From positions 1-21,213 of the IMG/VR virus record IMGVR_UViG_3300027833_001638: a stretch of DNA of 21,213 bases; one strand, written 5' to 3'. Below are positions 8,496 through 15,872 of the stretch, piece after piece (position 1 is the stretch's first letter; every line of letters begins with the position of its first letter). The notes beneath the pieces are model-generated. The model was not told the origin of the DNA. It did no database searches and saw only the letters and a program-made list of their open reading frames with translations. The DNA comes from a virus. A program made the translations under genes and the position numbers.

Positions 8496-8503
8496 AAAAC
8501 CCC

Positions 8504-8532
8504 TAGACAAACATTGACATACAGAGTATAAT
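8504..8532 (+). promoter_or_regulatory. Sigma70-type promoter ahead of the exonuclease gene
   Basis: TAGACA (8504-8509), a 17-nt spacer and a perfect TATAAT (8527-8532). The -10 box is only 5 nt before ATG 8538, so a transcript from it would start at about the start codon. A perfect TTGACA at 8514-8519 is also present; its matching -10 would be TATGAA at 8537-8542. This promoter does not share the spacer of the cassettes at 4544, 4857 and 5277. It likely starts the replication block. Confidence 0.65.
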
Positions 8533-8537
8533 ACATT

Positions 8538-9209
8538 ATGAAAGAATTTACATGCACACTGGGTGATTTAGAATCACTACAAGATAACATGACTCGTGGT
8601 CAAGAGAACGGGAAGAGGTTTTATCAAACACCCGATGGACAAAAATACCCAAGTGTTACAACCGTAACAGGACTACTCACAAGAGACCACATTAAGTTGT
8701 GGAGAGAACGAGTAGGTGAAGAAGTTGCAAACAAGATTTCAAGTGTCGCTGCAAGACGTGGTACTAAGATGCATTCTTTGTTTGAACAATACCTTCGTGC
8801 AGAAGAAGAGTTAGTCTTTGAAAATATCTTAGACGAGTCTATGTTCAAAGCAGTACAACCAGTTTTAGACGATATCATTCCAGTTGCTTTAGAAGCAGGA
8901 ATGTATAGTGACTCCTTACAAATGGCAGGTCAAGTAGACTGTATTGGTTTTTGGGATAACGAACTTTGTATTATAGACTTTAAGACTAGTGCAAAGTATA
9001 AAGAAGAATATATGGCCGACCCTTGGTTTCATCAGATGACTGCATATGCAATCATGGTTGAGGAACTTACAGGTGAGGAAATAGATTCAATAGTAGCAGT
9101 TGTTGCTGTTGATGGAGGAGGGGTTCAAGTCTTTGAGGCAGACCCTAGAGATTATGTTGAGAAACTATACGAGTTAAGAAATCGTTATAGTACATTATAC
9201 GGAGTATAA
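8538..9209 (+). CDS. PD-(D/E)XK exonuclease (RecB-like nuclease domain)
   Basis: A 223-residue single-domain nuclease of the RecB/Cas4-like PD-(D/E)XK superfamily. Visible landmarks: KYPSVTTVTGLL near the N-terminus (about 36-47), the helical GTKMHSLFEQYL (about 75-86) with the conserved His, AGQVDCIGFWD (about 134-144) giving the catalytic Asp, IIDFKTS (about 149-155) giving the D-x-K pair, and the Gln/Tyr helix FHQMTAYAIMVEEL. A 5'-3' DNA exonuclease role in replication or recombination, or degradation of host DNA, is likely. Start choice is uncertain: ATG 8538 has no Shine-Dalgarno and lies at the expected transcription start; the next Met (8589) would still leave the domain intact. The next gene follows after 2 nt. 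Confidence 0.88.
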   Translation: MKEFTCTLGDLESLQDNMTRGQENGKRFYQTPDGQKYPSVTTVTGLLTRDHIKLWRERVGEEVANKISSVAARRGTKMHSLFEQYLRAEEELVFENILDESMFKAVQPVLDDIIPVALEAGMYSDSLQMAGQVDCIGFWDNELCIIDFKTSAKYKEEYMADPWFHQMTAYAIMVEELTGEEIDSIVAVVAVDGGGVQVFEADPRDYVEKLYELRNRYSTLYGV

Positions 9210-9486: not shown

Positions 9487-9720
9487 ATGATAAGTAAAAA
9501 AGAATTTACAGATAAAGTAGAGAAGTTGGTGTTAATGGGAAGTGATGTACTAAGTGCAATCATTAAAATTTGTGAGGACAACAACCTCGAACCCGAAGCA
9601 TCAAAGAGATTAATCTCAACTCCTCTCAAAGAGAAGTTAGCTGATGAAGCAAAGGGACTGAACCTTATCAATCGTGGTGAGAATTCAGTCGGAACAATAA
9701 CCAAGTTTTTCACACAATAG
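9487..9720 (+). CDS. 33: Probable late-transcription coactivator (gp33-like)
   Basis: A 77-residue helical protein. The pattern FTDKVEKLVL...LSAIIKICEDNNLEPEASKRLISTPLKEKL..EAKGLNLI resembles, from memory, the short gp33 homologues of marine T4-like phages (V.KIV....Y.DAVI.YCE...LE......LI...LK.K.E.EA..LN). In T4, gp33 bridges RNA polymerase, the sliding clamp and gp55 to activate late promoters. It is shorter than T4 gp33 (112 aa), as in other marine relatives. Late-promoter-like sites at 18558-18595 fit the presence of such a factor. The assignment rests on pattern similarity alone. Confidence 0.6.
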   Translation: MISKKEFTDKVEKLVLMGSDVLSAIIKICEDNNLEPEASKRLISTPLKEKLADEAKGLNLINRGENSVGTITKFFTQ

Positions 9721-11766: not shown

Positions 11767-12663
11767 ATGAGTAGTAGTTTAGATAAACTAAGAGCAGCAA
11801 TGGAAACTGCTTCCCCATCCGATGGTGGAAAACAAAAATCCTTCAGTGACGACACAATGTGGAAACCCGAACTAGATAAAACTGGTAATGGTTATGCAGT
11901 GGTTCGTTTCTTACCTACCCCCGAGGGAGAAGAGATGCCATGGGTATCATACTTTGACCACGGATTCCAAGGCCCAGGCGGATGGTATATTGAGAAGTCT
12001 TTAACGACTCTTAGTAAACAAGACCCTGTATCTGAATACAATACCGAGTTGTGGAATACTGGGATTGAAGCAAACAAAGATATTGCTAGGAAACAAAAAC
12101 GCAGACTGCACTATGTTTCTAATGTCTATGTTGTATCAGACCCTAAAAATCCTGCTAACGAAGGTAAAGTGTTTAAGTATAGATTTGGTAAAAAAATCTT
12201 TGAAGCTCTTAAGGAAGCAATCTCACCTGCATTTGAAGATGAGAAAGCAATTAATCCTTTTGACTTGAGAGGAGAAGGTGCTAATTTCAAAATCAAAATC
12301 CGTAAGGTTGATGGTTACTGGAATTATGATAAATCAGAATTTTCTGATACTGCACCATTATTTGATGACGAAAATAAGTTGAGTGGTATATATACACAAC
12401 TACATTCATTATCGGGTATTATTGCACCAAGTGAATTCAAGACTTATGAAGAACTCAAAGAGAAACTTCAAAGAGTACTTGGAAGTGCTGGTACTACTTC
12501 AACTGCAGAAAGTATTGCAGAAGACTTGGACGAAGTTCCATGGTCTAATGTAAACACTGATACAGTTGCAGCGGAACCTGTAATCTCATCAGCTGAGTCA
12601 ACTCCACAAGTGGAAGAAGATGATGCGATGGATTACTTTAAGAACCTAGCTAACGAAAGTTAA
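11767..12663 (+). CDS. 32: gp32 single-stranded DNA-binding protein
   Basis: The phage SSB, which coats single-stranded DNA in replication and recombination and recruits gp59. A basic N-terminal region with SSSLDKLRAAM resembles the cooperativity (B) domain. The core has YAVVRFLPTPEGEEMPWVSY, HGFQGPGGWYIEKS, and DPVSEYNTELWNTG followed by KQKRRLHYVSNVYVVSDP, which is the layout of marine phage gp32. The C-terminus is acidic (VEEDDAMDYFKNL), as needed for partner binding. At 298 residues it is about T4 size (301). There is no cysteine anywhere, so the T4 zinc site (His-Cys3) is missing. Strong AGGAG lies 6 nt before the ATG. Confidence 0.93.
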   Translation: MSSSLDKLRAAMETASPSDGGKQKSFSDDTMWKPELDKTGNGYAVVRFLPTPEGEEMPWVSYFDHGFQGPGGWYIEKSLTTLSKQDPVSEYNTELWNTGIEANKDIARKQKRRLHYVSNVYVVSDPKNPANEGKVFKYRFGKKIFEALKEAISPAFEDEKAINPFDLRGEGANFKIKIRKVDGYWNYDKSEFSDTAPLFDDENKLSGIYTQLHSLSGIIAPSEFKTYEELKEKLQRVLGSAGTTSTAESIAEDLDEVPWSNVNTDTVAAEPVISSAESTPQVEEDDAMDYFKNLANES

Positions 12664-12871
12664 TTAGAGTTCTTAGTTGGGATGGTCTCATTATATTAAT
12701 GATATACTGTGAAAGTGAGACCATACACTAAGACCGTGGATTTACTCTTCTTAGAAGAGTGGGGGTACTTAGTAAGGGAAAGGTTAACAGCAAACATTGC
12801 GGGTTAATCGGTTAGGAGCGGGTATGCTGTAAAGCGTGGGGCGACTTAACACTTTTATTAATAGGAAATAC
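12664..12871 (+). ncRNA. Structured 5' leader (possible cis-regulatory RNA) of phage bS21
   Basis: 208 nt without a gene, containing four hairpins. (1) ATGGTCTCA 12682-12690 pairs perfectly with 12716-12724 around an inner TATAT/ATATA stem. (2) ACTAAG 12727-12732 pairs with 12768-12773, extended by ACC/GGT, with an inner 7-bp stem ACTCTTC/GAAGAGT (12744-12760). (3) TTAAC 12784-12788 pairs with 12803-12807 over GCAA/TTGC. (4) 12823-12838 is a 6-bp hairpin with a GUAA (GNRA) loop. Local G+C and G runs are clearly higher than in neighbours. TTAAC recurs at 12846-12850, an alternative partner for 12803-12807 close to the AGGA at 12863. No U tract follows any hairpin. Autoregulation by bS21 is a hypothesis. 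Confidence 0.55.
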
Positions 12872-13123
12872 ATGAAATACGATAACAAGAATAGACCAAA
12901 AAGAGACTTCAAAAATACTGAAGTTCCCTTCGATATTATGCTCAGACAATTTAAAAAATATTGTGAGAGGAAAGGTATTGTAGAAGAGGTAAGAGAAAGA
13001 AGGTATTTCTTGAAACCATCATTCATTAAGAATGAGAAGAACCAAAAACAAAAACGTAGAAACGAGTTAAATAGAATTCGTGCATCTAAGTCTGTTAGAA
13101 GACCAACAGGATTGCAACGATAG
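12872..13123 (+). CDS. rpsU: Phage-encoded ribosomal protein bS21
   Basis: The 83-residue product has the bS21 core at about residues 18-48: VPFDIMLRQFKKYCERKGIV then EEVRERRYFLKPS, which follows E. coli bS21 (EPFD.ALR.FKR.CE.AG...EVR.R....KP) almost position by position. A very basic helical tail with KNQKQKRRNELNR comes next. A 13-residue basic extension precedes the core. bS21 is the last small-subunit protein to join, near the 16S anti-Shine-Dalgarno region, and affects mRNA choice. bS21 genes are known in some phages, including pelagiphage HTVC008M. Start ATG 12872 has AGGA 5 nt upstream; the frame's earlier GTG 12836 lies in the structured leader and adds a non-homologous extension. Confidence 0.92.
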   Translation: MKYDNKNRPKRDFKNTEVPFDIMLRQFKKYCERKGIVEEVRERRYFLKPSFIKNEKNQKQKRRNELNRIRASKSVRRPTGLQR

Positions 13124-13137
13124 AATAGGAATTAGAC

Positions 13138-13290
13138 ATGAAAAAGACAAGTACCCCTCAAAGACCGAAGTCTCGGTTTGGTAATGTCTTATTTGCTAAG
13201 GACTCACCATTCAAACATCAAGTCGTAAAAGACCGAACCAAGTACACTAGGAAAGATAAGTTCAAAGAACCTCTTCCAGTTAGTTACTAA
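13138..13290 (+). CDS. Small basic protein downstream of bS21, 50 aa
   Basis: A 50-codon ORF starting MKKTSTPQRPKSRFGNVL and containing KDSPFKHQVVKDRTKY followed by TRKDKFK. It is very basic (about 13 Lys/Arg) and probably disordered, which suggests RNA, DNA or ribosome binding. AGGA lies 7 nt before the ATG, and only 14 nt separate it from the bS21 stop, so the two form one unit. It ends in a 4-nt convergent overlap with the tape-measure gene. Not recognised as a known ribosomal protein. Confidence 0.7.
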   Translation: MKKTSTPQRPKSRFGNVLFAKDSPFKHQVVKDRTKYTRKDKFKEPLPVSY

Positions 13291-15428
13291 AACACTCCTA
13301 TTATTCTTGGGTGATTTACGGATGATTGACCACCACCATTATTCAATATAGTATTTTGTGTTGTAGATGCGATTTGTGAAATATTACTAGCACCCGTTAC
13401 ACCCATAGCCTTTATTAATGCTTCGATTTGGTCTATACTATTATCTCCTAGATTTTTCTCTTTTACCATGGACACAACGTCTTCCATAGTCAATGGGGTA
13501 TCGGGTGTAGGGTCTACAAATCCCTCTCCAAGTTTCCCACCCCTTAAGGCACCCAAACGTAGACTATCCATTTCTTCCATTGAGTCTTTTTGGTCACCAA
13601 CTGCAAGAAGACCTGTATCTCTTCCAGTTATTTCGGCTAGTTTATTCTCTTCATCACCCATTGCAACATCAGCTATCCCACCTGCGACAGCAGCACCTGT
13701 CGTTCCAGCAACTGCTAACATGGTAAGACCTGTCGCCCAACCGACTGGATTAGAGAGTATAAACGCTCCAGCAGCTGCTGTGGTGACTGAAGCACCTACT
13801 GCTTTCCAAAATGGTATCATGTAATCTTCTTTTTCTTTGGCAGCAATGTACTCTAAACCTTTATTATATTCTTCATCTTCAATGATTTTGTCATTATGGA
13901 GTTGCTCTAAAGTTGCACGTTGTAGATTTGTATCATCCACATTACCAATATATTCCATATACCCCAAACCCACACTAGCTGCTGGGCCGGCTATCTTGGC
14001 CGCAGCTTTTATACCACCCTTTGCAACCACCTTAGCAGTATCGACTAATTTATTTGGTGGTGCTTCAACTACTTTGGGCATGAATTGACCACCAGTCGGT
14101 TTACCTGTGACAGGGTCAACTGAACCTGCAGGTTGTCTTCCCTGTGGTACTGGAGTCGTAGGTTTTGTAACTGTAGATGTTATTGGTAACGAGTCGGCAG
14201 TACCTTTTACTACCCCTGTCACTGCACCTGATGTCACCATTACTGCTTGGTCAATTTTCTTTTCGGCTAATCTATCCTCTGCTGTCATCTTAAGTGCATC
14301 AGCTTGTTTGGTATAATCCTCAAAAGTCATCTTAGAGTCTTTATTAGAGTAATTCTTATTGAGGTCTTTTTGTCCTTGAAGGGTATCGGAGTCTGAACGG
14401 TTTCCTAAAAGGAACTTGTTTATGAAGTCTGAGAATCCTTCAAATCTTGACATCAATGTGAGAACAGCAGCAACAAATGCACCTAGTATTAATGCACCTA
14501 TTCCTAGTTTACCGATAAATGGAGTCATTGCCGCAGCATTCTTTTTACTAATAAGACTAGTTTCGAAAACATTTGCTTCGACCATCCCAAAGATTTTACC
14601 TTGAGACTCTTCTTGTTGCTCGTTACCTATTACTACACCTTTTATAGAGTCTGCAAGATTATCGGATGCAGCTGTTTGTTGCAACATACCACCAGTCATA
14701 AAGTTTGCAGCTTTACCAATACCACCGAATACATTTTGAACTGCATTAAACTTCTTGGTTGCATCATCTAAGAACCCACCAATGTCTAACATACCACCAC
14801 TTAGTTCTTTAAGACCATCAGTAAAGTCACTGTAACCTTTGCTATCCGTTGATTTTTCGAGGTCAGTCTGTATTGCAGTTCTTATTCTTGTTTCATTTTT
14901 TTGTAGGTTTTCTAAATCCCTTTCGAATGCATCTTTTACTTTCTTAGATTCTGCATCAATAATTTTTTGTTCTTCGTCAATCTTTTCCTGAAGGTCAAGT
15001 CTCTTTACAGCATTTGTGGTCTTAGACTGTTCATTCATTAACACTTCCATCTCAGTCTTAGCTCTAAAGACTTTAATATTTTCTTCTATCTCTTTTGTTT
15101 GTTGTTTTTGTTTAGCAACAAGTGCGTCTGTGGCATCTTTCAATTCTTTATTATTTGCGGCATCTGCCATTCCTTTAGCTAGTTTTCTACTAGTAAGGAA
15201 CCCCTCAAAGCTGTCTTTAGACCCTGTTCTTATGTTTGCAGCTGAGATTGCAAGGTCACCATTAACTTCTGCTAACTTGTTGGTGAGTCCTTTAAACTTT
15301 GTATTTAAGTCCTTGGTTGCTTTTGCATATTCTTCTTGTGACTTGACAGATTTATCTTGAGCTGCTGTCATTGCCCTTTGAGATGCAATCTCTGCCTTAA
15401 GTTTAATGTCGGGGGTTTTATCTGCCAT
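13287..15428 (-). CDS. Probable tail tape-measure protein (gp29 position)
   Basis: A 713-residue virion-type protein. Residues 1-200 are long charged helices and coiled coil (KAEIASQRAMTAAQDKSVK, KQKQQTKEIEENIKVFRAK). Around 310-330 is a hydrophobic segment (IGALILGAFVAAVLTLM); 375-460 is polar with Pro/Thr-rich disorder (KPTTPVPQGRQPAG); 545-605 is Ala/Gly-rich and hydrophobic, with potential membrane segments; the C-terminus ends NHPRIIGVF. Long helices, Ala/Gly-rich hydrophobic patches and location downstream of the gp26 frameshift pair are typical of tape-measure proteins, which set tail length and reach the host membrane. T4 gp29 is 590 aa, and I see no direct sequence similarity. It is the last gene of the leftward block, with no terminator before the convergent gene. 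Confidence 0.65.
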   Translation of the reverse strand: MADKTPDIKLKAEIASQRAMTAAQDKSVKSQEEYAKATKDLNTKFKGLTNKLAEVNGDLAISAANIRTGSKDSFEGFLTSRKLAKGMADAANNKELKDATDALVAKQKQQTKEIEENIKVFRAKTEMEVLMNEQSKTTNAVKRLDLQEKIDEEQKIIDAESKKVKDAFERDLENLQKNETRIRTAIQTDLEKSTDSKGYSDFTDGLKELSGGMLDIGGFLDDATKKFNAVQNVFGGIGKAANFMTGGMLQQTAASDNLADSIKGVVIGNEQQEESQGKIFGMVEANVFETSLISKKNAAAMTPFIGKLGIGALILGAFVAAVLTLMSRFEGFSDFINKFLLGNRSDSDTLQGQKDLNKNYSNKDSKMTFEDYTKQADALKMTAEDRLAEKKIDQAVMVTSGAVTGVVKGTADSLPITSTVTKPTTPVPQGRQPAGSVDPVTGKPTGGQFMPKVVEAPPNKLVDTAKVVAKGGIKAAAKIAGPAASVGLGYMEYIGNVDDTNLQRATLEQLHNDKIIEDEEYNKGLEYIAAKEKEDYMIPFWKAVGASVTTAAAGAFILSNPVGWATGLTMLAVAGTTGAAVAGGIADVAMGDEENKLAEITGRDTGLLAVGDQKDSMEEMDSLRLGALRGGKLGEGFVDPTPDTPLTMEDVVSMVKEKNLGDNSIDQIEALIKAMGVTGASNISQIASTTQNTILNNGGGQSSVNHPRIIGVF

Positions 15429-15443
15429 TTAGATTTCTCTTAT

Positions 15444-15824
15444 TTATTTTCCACCAAAAGCTTTACCAGCTTCTGATATTCCGAATGCACCTAGTGTCAC
15501 AACAACGAATGATGTGTAGATGGTCTCAGAGACTTTCAAGTCCATGTCCCATGCAAGTGCGGTTACTAAGTCAGTTAATCCAAAGACGACCATTAAGAAG
15601 AAGGATATGAATCCTATAATTGACTTCTCATTGACATCATTGTCGTCTAGGAATAAATCCCCAAACTTTCTTACTGGTGGTTCGAGTTGATTCTTCGCTT
15701 TTATGGCTTCTTCTTTCATCTCTTTGATTGCATCTTCTTGTTCATCAAGTTTCTCAATCATCGCCATATACTTGTCTAAATCAATTTCGACTTCGTTTCT
15801 GCTGTTATCTGTATTTTCAGCCAT
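15444..15824 (-). CDS. Coiled-coil protein with two membrane segments, 126 aa
   Basis: I place the start at the ATG at 15824 (MAENTDNSRNE), because a GGAG sits 6 nt upstream; the ATG at 15836 contains that site. Residues 5-55 form an acidic/basic coiled coil (DKYMAMIEKLDEQEDAIKEM). Two hydrophobic spans follow: about 69-90 (IIGFISFFLMVVFGLTDLV) and about 100-120 (IYTSFVVVTLGAFGISEAG). The topology recalls a holin or a membrane-associated tail accessory protein. Its place between gp26 and the tape measure argues for a virion or assembly role. No family is recognised. Confidence 0.75.
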   Translation of the reverse strand: MAENTDNSRNEVEIDLDKYMAMIEKLDEQEDAIKEMKEEAIKAKNQLEPPVRKFGDLFLDDNDVNEKSIIGFISFFLMVVFGLTDLVTALAWDMDLKVSETIYTSFVVVTLGAFGISEAGKAFGGK

Positions 15825-15872
15825 TGTTAACTCCATATTATCTCACGATATTCATAATATAGGTTAATTTAA

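Follow-up and report, generated by a model that had tools for sequence, protein, structure and literature searches.

The DNA directly past gp32 in a group of uncultured, mostly marine, T4-like phages encodes a previously unlisted RNA family. In the window, the 21,213-base stretch of an IMG/VR virus record analyzed in the present study, this RNA lies at positions 12679-12856 on the plus strand. Covariation among its relatives showed a four-helix, plus-strand fold maintained by compensatory evolution and, thus, a real RNA family, which evolution has kept folded over a long time. On balance, we favor the view that this structured non-coding RNA of approximately 180 nt is itself the functional product; it would ancestrally have been made late in infection and likely forms an RNA-protein particle.

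The fold and its covariation

The gp32 gene for a single-stranded-DNA-binding protein (11767-12663, plus strand; Pfam gp32, E 4.2e-37; PHROG 224) always precedes the RNA. In the window, its stop is at 12663 and the ATG of bS21 (rpsU; 12872-13123, plus strand; Pfam PF01165, E 2.6e-9; NCBIfam TIGR00030) is at 12872, which confirmed the coordinates; AGGA at 12863-12866 lies ahead of bS21. A preliminary description, made from the letters alone, regarded the 208-nt gene-free stretch before rpsU as highly structured. This was borne out: positions 12664-12900 folded at -60.4 kcal/mol versus -47.0 ± 3.9 in dinucleotide shuffles (z -3.48, with 0 of 200 shuffles as low), the stems that it named are present, and four helices covary. 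The mean folding z was -3.4 across 22 family members.

The close relatives of bS21 say little about the RNA because their leader is nearly identical. The gp32 relatives were the informative set, and the same RNA was found 3' of gp32 in dozens of divergent contigs. A DNA pattern yielded 105 stretches, and 46 sequences were used for alignment A1, from which covariance model R1 was built. R1 matched a 178-nt conserved RNA at 12679-12856 of the window (146.6 bits, E 1.5e-33) and retrieved 72 members, 65 of which were distinct. In these 65 sequences, standard pairs made up 98.1% of cells, double-sided changes occurred in 25 of the 31 pairs of the four helices, and compensatory cells numbered 485 versus 127 ± 9.5 when shuffled. 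Pairing fell to 27-43% in a control in which partners were slid by 1-3 columns. The R1 alignment is biased toward its own structure; however, a MAFFT alignment not fitted to the structure gave the same outcome (199 compensatory cells versus 52 for P2-P4). We also applied a home-made, R-scape-like test (APC-corrected G statistic, FastTree tree, and 60 simulated null alignments), the null of which is simpler than that of R-scape. Against this tree-simulated null, 16 pairs reached E < 0.05, all of which were inside the structure (P1, P2, P3, and P4), with 0 outside. The covariation that the preliminary description had proposed to seek among homologous leaders is, therefore, abundant, and on this ground we consider the RNA to be real.

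All helices are on the plus strand. P1 is a 9-bp hairpin (12682-12690/12716-12724) in which 7 of 7 modelled pairs were compensatory, 6 at E < 0.05. P2 (12727-12732/12768-12773 and 12733-12735/12764-12766) has 6 + 3 bp with a bulged A12767 and compensatory changes in 6 of 9 pairs; its loop carries conserved GUGGA and GGG. A 7-bp stem within the P2 loop (12744-12750/12754-12760) is confined in alignment A1 to window-like members (the window, L012, L108, and L111). P1, and P2 with this insert, are the long stems of the preliminary description (9 bp; 6 + 3 bp around a 7-bp inner stem). The P3 hairpin (12782-12788/12803-12809) has a loop with conserved GCGG and a core common to group 2 (see below), and 6 of its 7 pairs were compensatory (5 of 6 in group-2 P3). 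P4 (12811-12816/12845-12850 and 12818-12819/12841-12842; 6 of 8 pairs compensatory, including GC/GC to AC/GU) encloses GGG...GGGG and P5. P5 (12824-12828/12833-12837), with its GUAA loop at 12829-12832, spans 12824-12837 and is the hairpin already recognized as GNRA-capped; UGCUGUAA is nearly invariant here in group 1 and absent in group 2. The conserved 3' end (12849-12856), ACAC followed by a U run in alignment A1, closes the RNA without a canonical terminator.

A candidate long-range pair, A12774-U12828 on the plus strand, joins J2/3 to P5. It was a standard, Watson-Crick pair in 65 of 65 sequences and occurred as three types (AU 62, UA 2, and CG 1); alone it was not significant against the tree-based null. 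We put this contact forward as a suggestion resting on few events. Two mutually exclusive partners had also been proposed for GUUAA 12803-12807. This proposal failed across the family: P3 was paired in 98.8% of cells versus 53.8% for the alternative (54.5% when shuffled), which is formable in 6 of 65 sequences. The two partners exist in the window solely owing to the UUAA that P3 and P4 share there.

Several further elements were considered and rejected. A G-quadruplex was absent from every minimum-energy fold (0/65 and 0/34). A likeness to RNase P motifs (GAGGAAAG) found no support in Rfam. A pseudoknot joining the P3 loop (AGCA) to P5 (UGCU) showed no covariation and, by eye, was broken in many members of alignment A1. 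A TATAATG-like promoter within the group-1 P1 loop had no -35 partner by eye. In the same loop (12691-12715 of the window), AUG...UGA is kept across the group-1 sequences of alignment A1, often as AUGUGUCC(G/U)UGA, while the stem varies freely. The window had no match in Rfam 15 at the gathering score; below it, only chance-level matches were found, with E up to 10 (the window, L236, L065, and L010).

G-U pairs outnumbered A-C pairs by 101 to 14; therefore, the plus strand is the structured strand. The adjoining replication gene and the single copy per record would also suit an element acting as DNA, for example, a replication origin whose stems function in the single-stranded form. However, the G-U excess fits a plus-strand RNA, although plus-strand single-stranded DNA is also compatible with it, and a late promoter stands in front of the RNA. 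We regard a DNA-level element as very improbable.

Two groups of carriers and the position of bS21

All RNA carriers formed one clade with 100/100 support in a tree of 96 gp32 proteins, and the RNA-less phages were placed outside. Within this clade, group 1, which contains the window, and group 2 (L062-L073 and L199-L245) were sister groups. The group-2 core consists of a G(A/U)GG joint, P3 with GCGGCAG, P4 with GCGGG...GGGGC, and an end resembling ACAC; P1 and P2 are variable, and L236-L239 appear by eye to have P3-P4 only. Model R2, built from group 2 alone and separately from R1, matched 36 group-2 loci. On group-1 loci, 12 of 12 R2 matches up to E 0.33 were at the RNA (E 0.001-0.33), while R1 matched four group-2 loci in the same place (E 0.009-0.3). 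The group-2 helices also covary (87 compensatory cells versus 24). These modest E-values, together with synteny, argue modestly for homology between the RNAs of the two groups.

R1 matched exactly once in 18 of 20 long records; in the other two, both of group 2, the RNA was found by R2. In whole genomes of cultured relatives, no RNA was detected by R1, and R2 gave only weak matches elsewhere (E >= 0.14); blastn to cultured phages returned no match covering the RNA. Two RNA-carrying phage contigs, JAAXIF010000105.1 (L300 and L321) and NYUU01000001.1 (L301 and L322), were among the matches of the bS21 search in bacterial genomes. The MAGs into which they were binned are of Sphingobacteriales and Synechococcus, respectively, but the contigs may be mis-binned and say little on hosts.

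In the preliminary description, the structure was seen as a possible feedback switch of bS21 or, alternatively, as a small RNA of its own. As an autoregulatory leader, it would be bound by phage bS21, which would repress its own translation. The arrangement in group 1 is compatible with this: in most members, bS21 starts 2-51 nt past the RNA with no terminator between them. Among 98 distinct members with sufficient downstream sequence, bS21 was the next gene in 56 by a regular expression, and also in L056, L059, and L118, which the expression missed and which were placed separately. Moreover, every RNA-bearing record tested, i.e., 20 of 20 long records, had one bS21 gene, no more than about 3 kb from the RNA. 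A link to bS21 is possible from this co-occurrence, and shared descent explains it equally well.

However, the RNA does not keep a constant place in the bS21 5' UTR. bS21 is its neighbor in group 1 only; in group 2, bS21 is upstream of gp32, overlaps the gp33 stop, and has no leader (L278 and L281). The next gene in group 2 encoded a small GKGS protein in 18 members, and none was recognized in 10; in seven of these, all distinct lineages, a convergent ORF ends 0-8 nt past the RNA and no same-strand gene was recognized. A gene for an N6/N4 DNA methyltransferase separates the RNA from bS21 in 10 distinct members. At least six group-1 lineages have a sigma-70-like promoter (TAGACA/TTGACA-like, N18, TATAAT) past the RNA, 12-14 nt ahead of the bS21 ATG, and bS21 mRNA from this promoter would, therefore, exclude the RNA. 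The cultured phages HTVC008M, Mosig, and Melnitz carry bS21 far from gp32 and lack the RNA, although their bS21 is intact. The exclusive pairing of GUUAA on which the proposed switch relied is not conserved, as described above. Collectively, these results make a bS21 leader unlikely, and of the two proposals the switch was not upheld, whereas an independent RNA agrees with the absence of a fixed downstream gene. Comparison of these loci showed that gp32 is the constant partner of the RNA.

The methyltransferase carriers (L016, L018, L020, L021, L023, L026, L032, L058, L140, and L147) are scattered in the gp32 tree; therefore, this cassette seems to have been gained or lost several times. In L030, L035, L043, L045, L053, and L190, the sigma-70-like promoter has a spacer of 18 and its -10 element begins only 12-14 nt before the bS21 ATG, and the bS21 mRNA may, therefore, be leaderless. 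A similar TAGACA...TATAAT at 8496-8540 of the window lies just ahead of an ATG at 8538, which suggests that promoters with short leaders are a general feature of this phage. Downstream of bS21, two convergent genes on the minus strand (13287-15428 and 15444-15836) had no PHROGs match.

The gp32 terminator and the late promoter

A canonical terminator follows gp32 in 23 of 23 RNA-less relatives and in 0 of 89 RNA carriers; therefore, the RNA replaced the gp32 terminator. The RNA does not itself contain an intrinsic terminator, defined as a short GC-rich hairpin with a U run immediately behind it, at any of the 89 RNA-bearing loci. The main rival to the RNA as a product in its own right is that it acts in cis at the 3' end of the gp32 transcript: having supplanted the intrinsic terminator, it would govern how the 3' end of this mRNA forms, how the mRNA is processed, or how stable it is. 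The constant position directly past gp32, the exchange for the terminator, and the conserved U run that closes the RNA all suit this explanation, as does the T4 gene 32 mRNA, which is unusually stable and cut by RNase E near the stop codon (PMC3014915). A structured 3' UTR domain has been called highly unusual in bacteria (PMC2864571).

The late promoter of group 2 argues against this rival. An exact TATAAATA, the T4-type late promoter, was present 6-32 nt past the gp32 stop in 30 of 30 of the group-2 sequences listed and also in the basal group-1 members L248, L272, and L276; half of the RNA clade has a perfect TATAAATA between gp32 and the RNA. Transcripts with the RNA and without gp32 are, therefore, expected in group 2. 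Moreover, the four-helix fold and invariant unpaired motifs exceed the needs of a 3' end. We consider the cis-acting element to be a serious but less probable explanation than an RNA that is itself the product.

Among 7-mers upstream of genes, ATAAATA showed the highest enrichment in one group-1 and one group-2 genome (G001 and G005). T4 late transcription depends on gp55 and gp33 (PMC3014915), and the window encodes a gp33-like T4 late transcription coactivator at 9487-9720 (Pfam Trans_coact, E 6.1e-15). By parsimony on the gp32 tree, we infer that the late promoter is ancestral and was lost in derived group 1. No promoter of its own was recognized for the RNA in most group-1 members, including the window; therefore, the RNA there may exist only within a gp32 or gp32-bS21 transcript. 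Among group-2 loci, L062 and others have the TATAAATA promoter flanked by an inverted repeat, GTCAATCC...GGATTGAC, in the first ~60 nt past gp32.

Proposed role and relation to known RNAs

We propose the following model for an RNA that is itself functional. Ancestrally, the phage-modified polymerase would have transcribed the RNA at a late stage of infection. In the lineage of the window, TATAAATA would have been lost with the gp32 terminator gone, such that the RNA would form the 3' portion of transcripts reading through from gp32, from which it may be released by processing. A discrete species would extend from just past TATAAATA (in group 2) to ACACUUUU, ~120-190 nt. Unpaired residues were 34% G and 9% C, and the conserved G-rich, C-poor single-stranded loops of the P3-P4 core most likely bind a phage or host protein. 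The RNA would, thus, act as an RNA-protein particle and not as a leader sensing bS21. More tentatively, it may be a late trans-acting RNA in a dedicated particle, possibly with bS21 or gp32, that aids the late takeover of translation or genome handling; we regard this as possible rather than probable.

Given the same G-rich, C-poor unpaired segments, the RNA might instead pair in trans with C-rich sequences, for instance the anti-Shine-Dalgarno tail, and act as an antisense RNA or a decoy for ribosomes. However, the predicted anti-Shine-Dalgarno duplex was weaker than those of shuffled segments (-6.9 versus -10.5 kcal/mol), pairing of the RNA with the gp32 5' region was also weaker than shuffled, and the loop sequences are not alike between the groups. 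We consider such pairing to be the least probable explanation.

Marine T4-like cyanophages carry other conserved RNAs found by comparative genomics (CFrI, wcaG, manA, PhotoRC-II, and the glutamine riboswitch; PMC2864571, PMC9602691), some of which have no described mechanism. CFrI is antisense to psbA and others lead metabolic genes, whereas the present RNA follows gp32 and has no Rfam match. Leaders of ribosomal-protein genes (20 candidates in PMC7247131, besides earlier ones in Rfam) are likewise structured RNAs ahead of such a gene, as in the window; however, the present family is not consistently located before bS21. PMC7247131 nowhere mentions S21, phage, or viral. Another structured RNA of T4-like phages linked to gp32 is the T4 gene 32 translational operator (PMC3014915); it is, however, a 5' pseudoknot that represses translation, whereas the present RNA is 3' and has a different fold. 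The L17 downstream element (RF01708) and 3'-UTR-derived sRNAs similarly lie behind a gene; however, the gene, organisms, and fold differ, and half of the present family has its own late promoter. According to passages of PMC6375957, viral bS21 enters ribosomes and, when in E. coli, impairs translation, and passages of PMC9723584 describe late expression of bS21 in other phages; the passages searched in these papers mention no leader or ncRNA. A search of literature available without subscription found no description of this RNA.

With this family, a large group of marine T4-like phages gains an RNA whose covariation is unusually clean. Its locus is at the boundary between a core replication gene and structural genes. 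It is also a case in which a ribosomal-protein neighbor hints at a leader and comparison then rejects it. With a single RNA at a single locus, a late promoter, and a ready covariance model, this family offers a bounded system for testing the function of phage non-coding RNA. If the RNA acts in trans as an RNA-protein particle, it would represent a functional class among phage RNAs for which no counterpart has been described.
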